Positions 14,931 through 20,148 of a stretch of 64,000 nucleotides of DNA are shown here, one piece after another. A program made the position numbers and the translations under genes. Position 1 is the first letter of the stretch; every line of letters starts with the position of its first letter. The stretch is taken from assembly GCA_027920525.1 (NCBI GenBank), contig CP115858.1, forward strand, positions 2,170,001-2,234,000, in the 5' to 3' direction. Source of the DNA: Chryseobacterium daecheongense (GTDB lineage Bacteria; Bacteroidota; Bacteroidia; Flavobacteriales; Weeksellaceae). Below the pieces are notes generated by a model. The model saw only the letters and a program-made list of their open reading frames with translations. It was not told the DNA's origin and did not search any database.

Positions 14931-15950
14931 ATGAGTACCGAAACATTAGAAAAAGCTAAATCTGCAATTCCTGTAAGGGGATTTTTAGATATTAAAGATA
15001 TAGCGATTCCTCAGGGAGAAGAGCTGGTGAAAGCTATTCTTAAGCTTAAAGAAGAGAAAAATGCGGTTATATTAGCGCATTATTACCAACCGGGAGAAAT
15101 TCAGGATATCGCAGATTTCCTGGGAGACTCTTTGCAGCTGGCAAGACAGGCTAAAGAAACCAATGCTGATATGATTGTATTCTGCGGTGTCCATTTTATG
15201 GCAGAGGCAGCTAAGATCCTTAACCCTACAAAAAAAGTTGTTCTTCCTGATACCATGGCCGGATGTTCATTGGCTGACGGGTGTAGTGGTGAAGGATTGA
15301 GAAAAATGCGCGAACAGCATCCAAATGCTTTAATCGCAACTTACATCAACTGTAATGCAGAAACGAAAGCAGAAAGTGATATTATTGTAACCAGCTCCAA
15401 TGCGGAAACGGTGATTGAGGCCTTACCTAAAGACCGACCTATCATCTTTGCACCAGATAAAAATCTTGGAAGATATCTTTCTAAAAAAACAGGCCGCGAT
15501 ATGATCCTTTGGGATGGAAGTTGTATAGTTCACGAAGCCTTTTCAATGGAAAGAATTGCTCAGCAATTGGCTGATAATCCGGATGCAAAACTAATTGCAC
15601 ATCCTGAAAGTGAAGAAGCTGTTTTAAAATTAGCCCACTTTATAGGTTCTACTTCTGCGTTATTAAACTATGTAGAAAAAGACGACTGCCAGAAATTCAT
15701 TATCGCTACAGAAGAAGGTATTCTGCACGAAATGAAAAAACGTGCTCCTCATAAGGAACTGATTCCGGCATTGGTTTTCGATGAAAGCTGCAACTGTTCA
15801 GAATGTTTCTATATGAAACGAAACACTATGGAAAAGCTCTATTTGTGTATGAAATATGAACTTCCGGAAATTCTTATCGACGAAGAACTTCGTTTGAAGG
15901 CCTTAAAGCCAATTGAAGCCATGCTTGATCTTTCAAAAAGCATCAAATAA
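14931..15950 (+). CDS. nadA: Quinolinate synthase
   Basis: The 339-residue enzyme condenses iminoaspartate with dihydroxyacetone phosphate to quinolinate in de novo NAD synthesis and carries a [4Fe-4S] cluster. Visible family blocks are ILAHYYQPGEIQDIADFLGDSL, FCGVHFMAEAAKILNP, DGCSGEGL, TYINCNAE and the C-terminal Cys-rich NCSECFYMKRNT. No nadB or nadC is in the window, so the gene stands apart from the rest of the pathway. A strong terminator follows. Confidence 0.96.
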   Translation: MSTETLEKAKSAIPVRGFLDIKDIAIPQGEELVKAILKLKEEKNAVILAHYYQPGEIQDIADFLGDSLQLARQAKETNADMIVFCGVHFMAEAAKILNPTKKVVLPDTMAGCSLADGCSGEGLRKMREQHPNALIATYINCNAETKAESDIIVTSSNAETVIEALPKDRPIIFAPDKNLGRYLSKKTGRDMILWDGSCIVHEAFSMERIAQQLADNPDAKLIAHPESEEAVLKLAHFIGSTSALLNYVEKDDCQKFIIATEEGILHEMKKRAPHKELIPALVFDESCNCSECFYMKRNTMEKLYLCMKYELPEILIDEELRLKALKPIEAMLDLSKSIK

Positions 15951-15952
15951 AT

Positions 15953-15983
15953 AAAAAGCACTGTTATCACAGTGCTTTTTTTG
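15953..15983 (+). terminator. Terminator of nadA
   Basis: A perfect 12-bp stem, AAAAAGCACTGT and ACAGTGCTTTTT, closes on the loop TATC and is followed by more T residues. The A-rich left arm means it could also stop the peptide transcripts coming from the opposite strand. Confidence 0.9.
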
Positions 15984-16022
15984 ATTTATTTTTATTCGAA
16001 ACAAAAAGTGTTTACCTCTGGA

Positions 16023-16196
16023 TTAACATGGAGGAAGTTCTATTAATCTCGCTTTACAGCATTCCGGCATTGCATTGAATACAGCACATGATTCCGGATC
16101 CGGACCAAACTGACCGGAAGGACAAACGTGATTACAATTCCCACTGCCATTAATTGCTTTTAAATGTTCTCTGTTTAAAATTTTAAAATTTTTCAT
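16023..16196 (-). CDS. Six-cysteine double-glycine-type leader peptide 1 (bacteriocin-like)
   Basis: A 57-residue reading frame, MKNFKILNREHLKAINGS followed by a Cys-rich core. It matches the three peptides upstream: a basic leader with a conserved [RK]-x2-LK-x2-N-G-[GS] end, then C-x3-C-P-x-G, and S-C-x8-C-C-x9-C. Here the usual Gly-Gly before the cleavage site is Gly-Ser. The core would be about 40 residues, with six cysteines and possibly three disulfides. It lies 53 bp after peptide 2 and is the last gene of the run. Function unknown; the leader suggests export by a peptidase-containing ABC transporter, but none is in this window. Confidence 0.75.
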   Translation of the reverse strand: MKNFKILNREHLKAINGSGNCNHVCPSGQFGPDPESCAVFNAMPECCKARLIELPPC

Positions 16197-16249
16197 GTCT
16201 GATCTATTTTTACATATAATATTTCATTCAGAATTACATCAGACATTTA

Positions 16250-16444
16250 CTAATTAGTAGTCAGGTCAAAACAATCAGCACTTACCAGTACTCTGGTTTT
16301 ACAACATTCCGGGAGCGCCTTAAAAGCATCACAAGAGTATGGGAATCCAGGTCCGTAAGGTCCCGGAGGACAGTTTTCATTGCATGTATCGCCACCAATG
16401 ACAGATTTTAAGTCCTTTCTGTTGATTCCTTTTAGATTTTTCAT
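16250..16444 (-). CDS. Six-cysteine double-glycine leader peptide 2 (bacteriocin-like)
   Basis: A 64-residue peptide starting MKNLKGINRKDLKSVIGG, then a core with CNENCPPGPYGPG, SCDAFKALPECC and a last Cys nine residues on. The cysteine spacing is identical to peptides 1, 3 and 4. An ATG at 16450 would add Met-Ala; alignment with the paralogues favours 16444. The core is very close to peptide 3, also at the nucleotide level over the PPGPYGPGFP stretch, suggesting a recent duplication. It lies 24-30 bp after peptide 3, probably in the same transcript. Confidence 0.8.
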   Translation of the reverse strand: MKNLKGINRKDLKSVIGGDTCNENCPPGPYGPGFPYSCDAFKALPECCKTRVLVSADCFDLTTN

Positions 16445-16474
16445 AGCCATTTTTTCATTTTTGATTAGTGAAAA

Positions 16475-16660
16475 TTAGTCCGGTGCACACTCGTAGCTTA
16501 ACAAAACTTTAGGTTTACAACATGCTGGCAAAGCATTATAGTCCGCACATGATCTGGGGAATCCAGGCCCGTAAGGCCCCGGAGGACAAGCATAGTTACA
16601 CGTTGCTCCTCCATTAACTGATTTTAATTTTTCCCGTTTTAATTTGATTAGATTTTTCAT
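16475..16660 (-). CDS. Six-cysteine double-glycine leader peptide 3 (bacteriocin-like)
   Basis: A 61-residue peptide with the leader MKNLIKLKREKLKSVNGG and a core containing CNYACPPGPYGPG, SCADYNALPACC and a final Cys after nine residues. It shares the C-x3-C-P...S-C-x8-C-C-x9-C frame exactly with its neighbours. The leader type resembles those labelled bacteriocin-like in other flavobacteria. It is separated from peptide 4 by a terminator-like hairpin, so peptides 3, 2 and 1 may form a unit of their own. Confidence 0.8.
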   Translation of the reverse strand: MKNLIKLKREKLKSVNGGATCNYACPPGPYGPGFPRSCADYNALPACCKPKVLLSYECAPD

Positions 16661-16734
16661 ATAATTCTATTAAGTTTGAATTATAAATATAGCAAATACA
16701 TTTGAATTTCAGATAATTAAACCTATTAAAACAT

Positions 16735-16770
16735 AAAAAAGGTTACTCATTTTGAATAACCTTTTTTTTT
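16735..16770 (-). terminator. Terminator-like hairpin between peptide 4 and peptide 3
   Basis: An A run, the arms GGTTA and TAACC around an 11-base middle part, and a T run on the other side. It reads as a terminator on either strand; on the minus strand it ends the peptide 4 gene. Confidence 0.65.
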
Positions 16771-16773
16771 ACG

Positions 16774-16968
16774 CTACATTGTAATTGGCCCGGCACATGC
16801 AGGGCTCAGAAACGCCTCATTCTTACAACACTGTGATAACAATTGATAGGCAGCACAGGAATGGGCAGCTCCTGAACCCGGTGGCCCATAAGTATTTCCC
16901 GCCGGACAGCCACCAGGGCAAGATCCTCCGTTAATCATTTTTAATTTTACTCGTGATAATTTTTTCAT
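16774..16968 (-). CDS. Six-cysteine double-glycine leader peptide 4 (bacteriocin-like)
   Basis: A 64-residue peptide, MKKLSRVKLKMINGG and then a core with CPGGCPAG, a Gly/Pro-rich insert, SCAAYQLLSQCC and a last Cys nine residues later. The frame is open from a TTG at 16986, but the ATG at 16968 aligns with the paralogues. The linker between the second and third cysteine is the longest of the four. Its own downstream hairpin suggests a separate transcript or differential expression. Confidence 0.78.
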   Translation of the reverse strand: MKKLSRVKLKMINGGSCPGGCPAGNTYGPPGSGAAHSCAAYQLLSQCCKNEAFLSPACAGPITM

Positions 16969-17009
16969 AATGAATATTTTAATCAATTTAAATTCTAAAA
17001 GTCAGATCA

Positions 17010-17177
17010 TCACACCATGGGTGGGTAACAGGTTCCTCCAGGGGTGCGCCAGCAACCCCAGCCTCCTTGTCTGAAACACACATATGCTGCTCCGCCACAA
17101 GTATCAATCTGAAATTGGGTAAATCCACCATTCACTTTTTTTTGCTCTTCTCTGGAGAGCTTCTTTAACTTTTCCAT
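17010..17177 (-). CDS. Double-glycine leader peptide 5, different core
   Basis: A 55-residue peptide, MEKLKKLSREEQKKVNGG, with a Gly/Trp-rich core holding four cysteines (TCGGAAYVC, GWGCWRTPGGTC). It does not share the six-Cys frame of peptides 1-4, but it has the same leader type, strand and location. It lies 41 bp upstream of peptide 4. This looks like a leader shared by different cargo peptides. Upstream DNA (17178-17490, about 300 bp) is AT-rich and I see no other gene in it. Confidence 0.7.
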   Translation of the reverse strand: MEKLKKLSREEQKKVNGGFTQFQIDTCGGAAYVCFRQGGWGCWRTPGGTCYPPMV

Positions 17178-17494
17178 ACACTCAAGTTTTGTTATTTGTA
17201 TTCGGATTAAATTTTTGATATAAAAGTGAGAATCATAAAATATAAAACAAAGCAGTATTTAATATCTGTACAGGATCAATAAGTAAGTGTAGAGGTTTTT
17301 ATTGTTTTCGTGATTTCCCAATAACCGTATATATAAAAGCAATCATTCTAACAGTCTAAAGGTGGTCATAAAAAAGAAATGCAAAATCGTATTTAGCTAT
17401 GTCTATCAAAGGATTACAATACATCTGCTAAAATTTGAGTCAAAAAAAATTATATTAAATTGGATTAAAAATTTTTATTTTCCAAAATAACTTC

Positions 17495-17502
17495 TACATT
17501 TG
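17495..17502 (+). promoter_or_regulatory. -7 promoter element (TACATTTG) of the threonine operon
   Basis: TACATTTG matches TAnnTTTG and would start transcription near 17506, about 8 nt before the leader peptide ATG and nearly 200 nt before thrA. A TTG at the expected upstream spacing was not found. Confidence 0.55.
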
Positions 17503-17513
17503 TTACTTCAAAG

Positions 17514-17612
17514 ATGCAATCAGTACAAAACATATCTGTAACTATTTATCCGGAGTTCTCTGCTTCGGTTGCATCATCCATTATTATTTCTACTACAACT
17601 ACAACCCCATAA
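17514..17612 (+). CDS. Threonine operon leader peptide (attenuator)
   Basis: A 32-residue reading frame directly after a promoter element and upstream of thrA-thrB-thrC. It starts MQSVQNISVT and ends IIISTTTTTP: three consecutive Ile codons, a Ser and five consecutive Thr codons just before the stop. This is the classic composition of a thr leader, as in E. coli thrL, where scarcity of charged tRNA-Thr or tRNA-Ile stalls the ribosome. The control codons overlap a hairpin and are followed by a terminator-like stem (17649-17683). The reading frame and repeats are seen directly; the regulatory role is inferred. Confidence 0.8.
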   Translation: MQSVQNISVTIYPEFSASVASSIIISTTTTTP

Positions 17613-17683
17613 CGGGGTAGATTTTCACATATTATTTCAGGTACCTCGTACTCTTTTTTTAAAGAGTAACATTTTTAATTTTT
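17604..17683 (+). promoter_or_regulatory. Putative Thr attenuator: competing hairpins and terminator
   Basis: Segment A, ACCCC (17604-17608, inside the last Thr and Pro codons), can pair with segment B, GGGGT (17614-17618). Segment B extended to GGGGTA (17614-17619) can instead pair, with G.U wobbles, with TACTCT (17649-17654). That stretch is the left arm of the terminator stem TACTCTTT / AAAGAGTA (17649-17656 and 17661-17668), which is followed by an AT stretch rich in T (to 17683). A ribosome stalled on the Thr codons would cover A, free B, and favour antitermination. Pairings were found by hand and not energy-tested. Confidence 0.6.
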
Positions 17684-17703
17684 CCCAACCTTAAAAATAT
17701 ACA

Positions 17704-20148
17704 ATGAAAGTCTTAAAATTCGGCGGAACTTCTGTTGCCCATGCACAGGCAGTTCTGCAAGTCGAAAAAATTATAAAAAAAGAATCTTCCGCTAAGCAAA
17801 TTGTCGTTGTAGTTTCAGCATTACATGGAGTAACAGATTTATTGATCAAGGCAGCAGAGCAAGCTTCCGAGGCTAATGACAGTTATCCTCATCATCTTAA
17901 AATCCTTGAAGAAAAACATCTGAACCTTGTAAAAGACCTTCTTCCCATTTCAGCACAAAGTGCATGGCTAAGTTTTGTAAAAAAGCACTTTAATGATATT
18001 GAAGATATTTGTAACGGGATATTCACCTTGGGAGAATTTACCCCCAGAATTAAAGATAAGATCGCTTCTTATGGCGAGTTCCTCTCTTCAAATATCATTA
18101 CGGCAAGGTTTGAATCTGCCGGGCTGGACGCCGTATGGATGAATTCAGCTGATTATATCAGAACAAATACCCATTATACACGGGCAAAAGTTGATTTTAA
18201 TGTGAGTAATAATAATCTCAGACATTATTTCGAAACCAATCCAAGGCAGATTTACGTAGCACCAGGCTTTATAGCAAGTGATGAACATGGCAACAGAACA
18301 ACTCTGGGAAGAGGAGGTTCAGACTACTCCGCTGCAATTATTGCTTCAGCCATTAACGCTGAGGAGCTTCAGATATGGACTGATGTCAGCGGAATGATGA
18401 CAGCCGATCCCAGGCTTGTATCCCAGGCAAAAGTTATTCCTGAAATAACTTATCAGGAAGCAATGGAATTATCCCATTTCGGAGCAAAAGTACTTTATCC
18501 GCCCACCATTCAGCCGGTCATGGTAAAGAATATAGATCTTCGTATCAAAAATACTTTTAATGCGGATGCTTCAGGAACTTTAATCTCTCATGATCTGCAG
18601 AATACTGATCCGGAACAAATAGCTGTTGGTATTTCCAATATGAATAATATTGCTCTTCTCACTCTTGAAGGAAGCGGAATGGTTGGAATTCCCGGAATCT
18701 CTGCCAAGCTTTTCCAGTGTTTAAGCCACGAAAAAATAAACGTTATTCTAATCACCCAAAGTTCTTCTGAGCATTCAATCACCCTTGCAATTGATGAAAA
18801 AGAGCTTTTTCACGCGGAAAGCGCAATTAATCTTGCATTTGAAGATGATTTGAAACTTCAGAGAATTGAACCTGTAAAAATTGAAAACAGGCTTTCCATT
18901 GTGGCGGTTGTAGGAGAAAATATGAAAAGCAGAAGCGGTGTAAGCGCCAAGATGTTCAGCTGTCTTGGAAATAACGGGATAAACATCAGGGCTATTGCAC
19001 AGGGTTCTTCGGAAAAAAATATCAGCATCGTAATTGCTGAAAATGACACAAAAAAAGCAGTAAACATTCTGCATGAAGAGTTTTTTGAGTCAGAAATCAA
19101 ACAGGTACATCTTTACATCTGCGGAACAGGAAATGTAGGCACTAAGCTTATACAGCAGGTGTATGCCCAGAATAAATACCTTAGAGATCATCTATCCCTT
19201 AACCTGAGAATCGCCGGTCTTTCCAACAGTCGGAAAATGGTATTTTTGAATGAAGGAATTCCGGAAAATGATTATGTCAACCTGCTTGAAAACGGAGAAA
19301 AAGCTTCTGCTCATCAATTTAGCAGAGAGATCATAACAAGAAATCTTAGAAACTCGGTCTTTGTAGACCTTACAGCCAATGCTGAGATCCCGGAAATTTA
19401 TGAGAACCTGTTAAAAAAGAGTGTCAACATTGTAGCCTGTAATAAAATAGCAGCCGCATCAGATTTTGAAAATTATAAAAAGCTGAAAAACCTAGCTAAA
19501 AACCACAATTGTAGATTTTTCTTTGAAACCAATGTAGGGGCAGGACTTCCTATTATCGGAACTATAAATGATCTGGTGAGAAGCGGCGATGCTATTACTT
19601 CCATTAAGGCCGTGTTAAGCGGTACTTTAAATTTTGTTTTTAATGAGTACGATGGAACCCAATCATTTTCAGAAGTTGTTGCCCGTGCTCAGAAAGAAGG
19701 ATTTACTGAACCCGACCCGAGACTGGATCTTGCCGGAACAGATGTGGCGAGAAAAATTTTAATACTTGCACGCGAAGCCGGTTTTCCTCTGCAGTTTAAT
19801 GAAATCGAGAACATTAGTTTTTTACCGGAAGAATGCATGCAGGGTGATGTAGAAAATTTTTATACCATGCTTGTAAAATATGAGGATCATTTTAAAAATC
19901 TATTTGACCAGGCTAAAAAGGTCGGAAAAATTTTAAAATATGTCGCAGAGTTTGACAATGGTAAAGCAAAAGTTGGATTACAGCATATAGCGCCCGACAG
20001 TGATTTGTTTCATCTGTACGGAAAAGACAATATTGTTATTTTCAAAACTTTAAGATATTCCGAGCAACCCCTGGTTGTAAAAGGTGCAGGTGCAGGTGCT
20101 GAAGTTACAGCAAGTGGTGTTTTTGCAGATATTGTACGTTCCGTTTAA
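17704..20148 (+). CDS. thrA: Bifunctional aspartokinase / homoserine dehydrogenase
   Basis: The 814-residue fusion catalyses the first and third steps from aspartate to threonine. The N-terminal aspartokinase has KFGGTS at residues 5-10, GRGGSDYSAA near 200 and two ACT-type regulatory segments in the middle (about 300-455). The C-terminal homoserine dehydrogenase begins with a Rossmann motif (YICGTGNVGTK, near 473) and has FETNVGAGLPIIGT and KAVLSGTLNFVFN. The ACT region implies feedback by threonine. It is the first structural gene of the operon, downstream of the attenuator and 9 bp from thrB. Confidence 0.96.
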   Translation: MKVLKFGGTSVAHAQAVLQVEKIIKKESSAKQIVVVVSALHGVTDLLIKAAEQASEANDSYPHHLKILEEKHLNLVKDLLPISAQSAWLSFVKKHFNDIEDICNGIFTLGEFTPRIKDKIASYGEFLSSNIITARFESAGLDAVWMNSADYIRTNTHYTRAKVDFNVSNNNLRHYFETNPRQIYVAPGFIASDEHGNRTTLGRGGSDYSAAIIASAINAEELQIWTDVSGMMTADPRLVSQAKVIPEITYQEAMELSHFGAKVLYPPTIQPVMVKNIDLRIKNTFNADASGTLISHDLQNTDPEQIAVGISNMNNIALLTLEGSGMVGIPGISAKLFQCLSHEKINVILITQSSSEHSITLAIDEKELFHAESAINLAFEDDLKLQRIEPVKIENRLSIVAVVGENMKSRSGVSAKMFSCLGNNGINIRAIAQGSSEKNISIVIAENDTKKAVNILHEEFFESEIKQVHLYICGTGNVGTKLIQQVYAQNKYLRDHLSLNLRIAGLSNSRKMVFLNEGIPENDYVNLLENGEKASAHQFSREIITRNLRNSVFVDLTANAEIPEIYENLLKKSVNIVACNKIAAASDFENYKKLKNLAKNHNCRFFFETNVGAGLPIIGTINDLVRSGDAITSIKAVLSGTLNFVFNEYDGTQSFSEVVARAQKEGFTEPDPRLDLAGTDVARKILILAREAGFPLQFNEIENISFLPEECMQGDVENFYTMLVKYEDHFKNLFDQAKKVGKILKYVAEFDNGKAKVGLQHIAPDSDLFHLYGKDNIVIFKTLRYSEQPLVVKGAGAGAEVTASGVFADIVRSV

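Follow-up and report, generated by a model that had tools for sequence, protein, structure and literature searches.

The window, i.e., the whole stretch of 64 kb of DNA that was analysed, contains a cluster of five small genes, p1 to p5, which lies within positions 15951-17703 with nadA on one side and thrA on the other (Table 1). The names of these two genes and of the other neighbours were assigned by eye, with no family search. For p1 to p4, four tandem genes on the minus strand, a first-pass annotation had described leaders ending in Gly-Gly or Gly-Ser and a shared cysteine frame, C-x3-C-P...S-C-x8-CC-x9-C, and this description was confirmed. The gaps between the cysteines are 3, 11, 8, 0, and 9 residues in p1, 3, 12, 8, 0, and 9 in p2 and p3, and 3, 16, 8, 0, and 9 in p4. 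The latter is the divergent member, with a longer first loop (16 residues as compared to 11, 12, and 12 in p1-p3), and has conserved counterparts in relatives. The first gene of the cluster, p5, was absent from that annotation and has a core unlike that of p1-p4. For p2 an in-frame ATG two codons upstream (16450) would be an alternative start, yielding 66 amino acids. The six-cysteine frame occurs in four open reading frames of the window and in none from 20 dinucleotide-preserving shuffles of the 64 kb, and a regular expression for the leader together with at least two cysteines gave five occurrences in the window as compared to one across all 20 shuffles. Between 15850 and 17750 five terminator-like sites were found, the shuffle mean being 1.2. 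From the positions of the two hairpins given in Table 1, of which the second splits the cluster, two transcription units, p5-p4 and p3-p2-p1, are suggested.

Table 1: Genes and hairpins at the precursor locus (positions in the window).
Feature	Position	Strand	Description
nadA	14931-15950	+	Flanks the cluster; named by eye
Terminator-like hairpin, two-way	15953-15980		Between nadA and p1
p1, six-cysteine precursor	16023-16196	-	57 aa; 18-aa leader with GS at its end, 39-aa mature part
p2, six-cysteine precursor	16250-16444	-	64 aa; 18-aa leader with GG at its end, 46-aa mature part
p3, six-cysteine precursor	16475-16660	-	61 aa; 18-aa leader with GG at its end, 43-aa mature part
Terminator-like hairpin	16735-16767	-	After p4
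p4, six-cysteine precursor	16774-16968	-	64 aa; 15-aa leader with GG at its end, 49-aa mature part
p5, GG-leader precursor	17010-17177	-	55 aa; leader 18 aa; mature part 37 aa with four cysteines
32-codon open reading frame	17514-17612	+	Upstream of thrA
Hairpin	17604-17618		Spans the stop codon of the 32-codon frame
thrA, aspartokinase/homoserine dehydrogenase-like	17704-20148	+	Flanks the cluster; named by eye

The leaders are of a class that already has a name, and the earlier reading of the products as secreted-type peptides with a double-glycine leader is supported. With the model NF047798 (leader_Chryseo, "bacteriocin-like protein"), p1 (28.6 bits) and p5 (30.6 bits) pass the cut-off of 23.5 bits. 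p2 (20.2 bits), p3 (20.2 bits), and p4 (13.9 bits) score below it; they align across the same 14-18 residues as its leader and are treated as sub-threshold paralogues, not as members. NF047798 models an 18-residue leader and nothing beyond it, neither a core nor an exporter, an oxidase, or a tested activity being given; the regular expression used here for the subfamily, p5-type, linkage, and parity counts is looser than this model. A similar leader is found in the CCPGW family of putative bacteriocins (NCBIfam NF047792), the match of which to p3 (E 0.0017, residues 1-22) covers the leader only and reaches 18.3 bits as compared to a cut-off of 80 bits. The family TIGR04149 (GG_sam_targ_CFB, RiPPs modified by radical-SAM enzymes) was rejected: p2 and p3, which share with it a GG-type leader of Bacteroidota, score 14.9 and 13.3 bits against a cut-off of 25 bits, and p1, p4, and p5 were not listed at an E value of 1. 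Inspection of the neighbours by eye revealed neither a radical-SAM partner nor another modification enzyme beside the cluster, and the further post-translational modification that had been considered is with these two results not supported. No Pfam family matched the cluster peptides at its cut-off. A word-limited search of 5.8 billion proteins yielded eight homologues of p3, one of which is named "bacteriocin-like protein" and one "Bacteriocin" in its source.

Relatives of p1-p4, termed here subfamily A, were collected with profiles and patterns built from p1-p4-type peptides themselves, and among 97 loci 69 open reading frames fitted a looser six-cysteine pattern (gaps 2-5, 6-25, 6-10, 0, and 6-12), all 69 of them with the spacing 3, 9-20, 8, 0, and 9. 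As the looser pattern still demands the adjacent cysteine pair it cannot find a sister subfamily, of which 27 distinct peptides with C-x2-CP...C-x9-C-x2-C-x6-C are present in the same loci. The expectation that homologues keep the cysteine spacing thus holds exactly within subfamily A and fails for the sister subfamily. The 69 frames correspond to 45 distinct full-length peptides with an unbroken reading frame, a set which includes p1-p4 (p4 by way of an identical copy) and was drawn from fetched loci in which several species are present twice. In these 45 sequences P26, G28, P29, G31, G33, P35, S37, A43, L44, and P45 are each at least 91% conserved. That most of the other residues in the core are variable, as remarked earlier, goes too far for the subfamily; it is p4 that diverges. 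The pN/pS ratio is 0.25 in the leader and about 0.26 in the core (from those 48 of the 990 pairs whose dS is below 0.8), and the subfamily is under purifying selection.

A joint alignment of 72 cores of both types (A2, in the row L031 of which the trimmed first residue is M for L, TTG being read as start) has five of the six cysteine columns invariant. The position of the sixth cysteine differs: in p1-p4 it immediately precedes the fourth invariant cysteine, and in the sister type it comes four residues later, a shift which would be compatible with one turn of a helix. An AlphaFold2 model of mature p3 (mean pLDDT 84.6, pTM 0.59) had no match in the PDB, which excludes nothing. In 26 of the 30 loci L038-L067 nadA lies in the same 3.2-kb stretch, and thrA alone in one more; these loci, like L068-L097, are the best-scoring ones of their respective search, not random ones. 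The composition of the cassettes at the nadA locus differs between species. A core-only profile (E 1e-5) found the six-cysteine cores in 111 of 296 genomes of the family, all of them from the own genus (1 of 33 genera), and the 13 loci in named genome records are all from Chryseobacterium. The same nadA-thrA island also harbours a further type of six-cysteine precursor, C-x5-C-x4-C-x2-C...C...C, for example CVVDLDCGPTGCAVCTDLKGRRVC, which was found in L027, L028, L030-L032, L034, L045, L051, L054, and L057. Cores of the p5 type (approximately FTQxQIDxCGGxAxVCFxxGGWGCWRxxGGTCYxPMV) are strongly conserved across species (L024-L059) while the neighbouring cassettes vary, hinting at a distinct role for this type.

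Precursors with this leader are by no means confined to the cluster. NF047798 gave 36 matches in the own genome at an E value of 10 or less, 16 of them above the cut-off. The 32 matches that were read, five in the window and 27 elsewhere, each have at least four cysteines past the leader (the totals for L018 and L020 count residues upstream of the start), so the genome encodes at least 32 cysteine-rich precursors with related leaders. Within the genus leader matches (E 1e-3) occur in 160 of 173 genomes, with 1 to 47 per genome. The loci that were fetched yielded 217 distinct cores containing two or more cysteines, which form 98 clusters at 60% identity. The number of cysteines is even in 95 of these 98 clusters, as compared to a mean of 51% and a maximum of 68% in 2000 runs of a binomial simulation; for the control residues the counts are even in 39 of 82 (glycine), 47 of 87 (proline), and 33 of 62 clusters (serine). 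Full pairing of the cysteines into disulfides predicts even numbers, which fit it. Besides the frames already described, 21 distinct cores with the same leader class have a frame C-x5/6-C-x5-CC-x3/4-C-xn-C, which we take to be cystine-knot-like. In the own genome such precursors are found at L002 7062-7517 (three in tandem), L005 5440-5580, and L018 5196-5309, and elsewhere in L036, L076-L097 (ten loci), L111, and L123. An AlphaFold2 model of one core of this kind (mean pLDDT 82, pTM 0.38) gave PDB matches which were not significant.

As had been noted before, no exporter lies beside the genes; matches to a C39 transporter or to VKOR are absent from the window. Three C39-peptidase ABC transporters are encoded elsewhere in the own genome, and the earlier proposal that maturation would come from another place in the genome is supported by a candidate hub at about 3.69 Mb (G000:C1 3691544-3697217), some 1.5 Mb away from p1-p5. 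Its exporter (C1:3693167-3695359) sits between an HlyD gene and the only VKOR gene of the genome, and a leader-type precursor scoring 21.7 bits with NF047798, just under the cut-off, is encoded between the exporter gene and that of HlyD. C15, H89, D106, a Walker A motif, and VSGGQ are present in the exporter, and the oxidase, a VKOR-thioredoxin protein, has CRVC (253) and a thioredoxin-type CGFC (365). No leader match was found near the other two C39 transporters. One of these belongs to a separate locus of the radical-SAM/SPASM cyclophane type (L119 5139-8787, G000:C1 about 4330138-4333786), which comprises an XyeA-like precursor of 56 amino acids and a YhhB/FxsB-like maturase, both below their NCBIfam cut-offs. 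The other (L118 6881-10410) directly follows the gene of an unnamed 442-amino-acid protein that had no NCBIfam match, and no precursor was recognised there among open reading frames of at least 45 amino acids.

The connection between leader class and hub becomes apparent when other genomes are considered. In 18 of the 30 best-scoring oxidase loci a leader peptide is encoded within 1.5 kb, chance expectation being about 0.02 leaders per oxidase locus (some 25 leaders per 4.8 Mb); the locus of the own genome is among the remaining 12. At least one leader peptide is contained in 17 of 20 wider stretches (L012, L098-L116), which were hand-picked, about half of them for a nearby leader match and L115 and L116 for none, and 15 of the 20 have all three hub genes. 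L117, which was picked along with L098-L116, does not represent a hub. Within the genus the usual arrangement runs VKOR, peptides, exporter, sometimes further peptides, and HlyD. VKOR, peptides, and exporter follow each other in L098, which is from another genus; the same parts are arranged in other orders in L100 and L104, and L101 has the three hub genes with no peptide.

With thresholds of E 1e-20 for the oxidase and 1e-3 for the leader, 159 of 173 genus genomes have leader and oxidase, 1 the leader only, 3 the oxidase only, and 10 neither. The respective figures for 147 genomes of the family outside the genus (oxidase 1e-60, leader 1e-4; the 149 genomes of the own genus in the sample were counted from the listing) are 10, 3, 3, and 131. 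Fisher p values of 6e-13 within and 8e-11 outside the genus ignore shared ancestry and overstate the association because related genomes are not independent. Across the phylum this type of oxidase is scattered (27 of 296 genomes, 8 of 139 genera, E 1e-30). The leader-cutting ABC exporter and the oxidase are thus linked to the same leader class, with a few exceptions. G069 has four leader matches and a six-cysteine precursor by nadA (L117 5196-5402) and lacks both a full-length hub exporter and, at E 1e-20, an oxidase; it is a real counterexample, for which recent loss, an assembly gap, or another exporter are possible explanations. A complete hub with no leader match is found in G089 and G137, and the hub exporter is kept, 91% identical, in G004 and G030 with no close oxidase, the match in G030 being weak (1e-34) and counted as oxidase only. 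Together with the even cysteine numbers, the linkage of a VKOR-thioredoxin oxidase to the leader class supports the disulfides that had been suggested for these peptides.

How a single oxidase could act on such different precursors may be explained by its N-terminal domain. The first 118 residues of the oxidase of the own genome have no Pfam match. Of five homologues scanned, three distant ones (L127-L129) match Peptidase_C39 at the N-terminus, just under the cut-off (E 2.4e-4 to 8.2e-4), and the other two have no such match there. Comparison of the N-terminus of the oxidase with the C39 domain of the exporter by hhalign gave probabilities of 51% (local) and 30% (global) from shallow alignments, and an E value of about 1e-4 in one comparison. 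The own oxidase contains no cysteine before residue 174. We propose that its N-terminus is an inactive C39-like domain, lacking the catalytic cysteine, which would dock the same leaders as the exporter. Such docking would allow one oxidase to serve many unlike cores.

We consider it probable that p1-p5 are precursors of exported peptides which are oxidised to disulfides and cut in trans by the hub, and infer that it is this hub which serves these particular precursors. The first 15-18 residues would act as a docking leader that brings the precursor to the hub, where the VKOR-thioredoxin oxidase would close the disulfides. The C39-peptidase ABC transporter would then cut after Gly-Gly or Gly-Ser and export the peptide through a channel which the HlyD protein would complete. 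From p1-p4 peptides of 39-49 residues with three disulfides of presumed connectivity would result. The chances are about even for the wider reading that disulfide-rich peptides, often by the tens, are encoded at scattered places in most Chryseobacterium genomes as a library with one leader class, and that a single hub, whose oxidase reads the leader via the inactive C39 domain, oxidises, cuts, and exports all of them in trans; the cores of this library would be unlike each other, mostly with four or six cysteines and several with knottin-like frames. Such a library would correspond, in bacteria, to a repertoire of venoms or defensins that relies on one line of secretion.

The nearest known counterparts are the bacteroidetocins of class IIf. 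According to two reports (PMC6671954, PMC8546649) they have in common with the system of p1-p4 a GG leader, a mature size near 42 amino acids, a disulfide-forming oxidoreductase with a C39 ABC transporter, and the absence of an immunity gene. For toxin production in E. coli no more is needed than a GG peptide, a transmembrane protein, a thiol oxidoreductase, and a transporter of the C39 ABC type, loss of the oxidoreductase attenuates the activity, and no immunity gene was found (PMC6671954); the target is given as BamA (PMC8546649). Bacteroidetocins A and B have four cysteines in the mature peptide and p1-p4 have six; the mature part of p5, with four, can be set beside them by cysteine count alone. 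Their leader has 15-16 residues, while that of p4 has 15 and those of p1-p3 and p5 have 18, p1 ending in GS. The genes for oxidoreductase and C39 ABC transporter adjoin the peptide gene in bacteroidetocins, whereas the hub is 1.5 Mb away from p1-p5. Unlike bacteroidetocins, precursors of the p1-p5 type are many per genome, and the hub includes HlyD. Bacteroidetocins kill Bacteroidales, whereas p1-p5 are known here from their genes alone. The pediocin-like bacteriocins of class IIa likewise combine a GG leader, export by a C39 ABC transporter, and disulfides. Their motif YGNGV (PMC3546714) is absent from the mature N-terminus of p1-p5, and p1-p4 differ from them by six cysteines, by the lack of a recognisable immunity gene, and by a hub with VKOR and HlyD.

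Because of the analogy with bacteroidetocins, receptor-specific antagonism between related bacteria may be taken as a first guess for the role of the peptides, a tentative one that falls somewhat short of an even chance. For the oxidised mature peptides the calculated monoisotopic masses are 4126.74 (p1), 4952.10 (p2), 4515.96 (p3), 4752.01 (p4), and 4055.75 (p5), to which reduction would add about 6.05 in p1-p4 and 4.03 in p5. The net charge of the mature parts at pH 7 is -2.2 for p1, -3.3 for p2, -0.3 for p3, and -0.5 for p4. Most membrane-active bacteriocins are unlike p1-p4 in this respect, and charges in this acidic to neutral range speak against a bacteriocin of the generic, membrane-active kind. 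Signals or kin-recognition factors that are secreted, share this biogenesis, and would address receptors on sister cells instead of killing appear less probable. The acidic to neutral charge would suit them as well, as would the purifying selection on the precursors, the variation of the cassettes at the nadA locus between species, and the fact that nadA-thrA leaves only short overlapping or unlinked open reading frames (41-49 amino acids) for an immunity gene. On the other hand, no sensor kinase or receptor gene was recognised by eye among the neighbours, and bacteroidetocins kill although they lack immunity genes (PMC6671954), so that the absence of such a gene decides nothing.

It is unlikely that the peptides are stable disulfide scaffolds aimed at eukaryotes or predators, i.e., inhibitors of proteases or effectors of the knottin kind directed at amoebae, nematodes, or fungi. 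The cystine-knot-like frame of other precursors with this leader would be in line with such a use, as would weak matches to Pfam Conotoxin (E 0.03, 15.7 bits as compared to 25.1) and, with Foldseek, to hevein-like peptides of plants and a peptide from spider venom (E 3 to 7.5), but these matches are not significant and concern other cores, the model of p3 has no match in the PDB, and nothing connects p1-p4 to a eukaryotic target. Still more improbable are enzymatically modified RiPP precursors with thioether or radical-SAM cross-links at the cysteines, introduced by enzymes from elsewhere in the genome. A weak similarity of p2 (E 0.019) and p3 (E 0.059) to TIGR04149 points this way, and the genome does have the cyclophane-type locus with its own C39 ABC transporter; yet this similarity stays well under the family cut-off, the radical-SAM locus has its own unrelated precursor, the even cysteine numbers fit pairing of cysteine with cysteine, and leaders of this class go together with a disulfide oxidase. 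That the genes are residual, nonfunctional small reading frames kept beside nadA by chance, for which one might cite that the peptides are known from genes alone and that G069 retains one with no hub, is hardly credible given a frame found in 0 of 20 shuffles, a pN/pS of about 0.25 in leader and core, and 45 distinct sequences with an unbroken reading frame.

The leader class and the biochemistry are of kinds already known. No description of a six-cysteine system with a hub acting in trans was found among the matches listed from the openly licensed literature in PubMed Central, which is weak evidence of novelty. As far as this literature shows, the six-cysteine cores, the attribution of tens of dispersed precursors to one hub acting in trans, the evidence from cysteine parity, and a C39-like domain on an oxidase in this setting are new. 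An orphan family of small peptides, known in the databases searched by its leader, is thereby joined to a specific candidate system for oxidation and export. The arrangement suggests that megabases may separate precursors from their machinery, and mining of neighbouring genes alone would therefore miss most of the precursors. If the proposed scheme is true, small disulfide scaffolds which a Gram-negative bacterium itself makes and exports would become available from a natural source.

Apart from the precursors, the 32-codon open reading frame upstream of thrA deserves mention. It ends in ...SSIIISTTTTTP-stop, and the hairpin which spans its stop codon has the sequence CCCCATAACGGGG. No Rfam match was obtained at this site, which looks like an attenuation leader of a threonine operon. 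Threonine-rich open reading frames with a GGGG run past the stop codon were found in 14 of 42 loci scanned, the own genome included and some species present twice.
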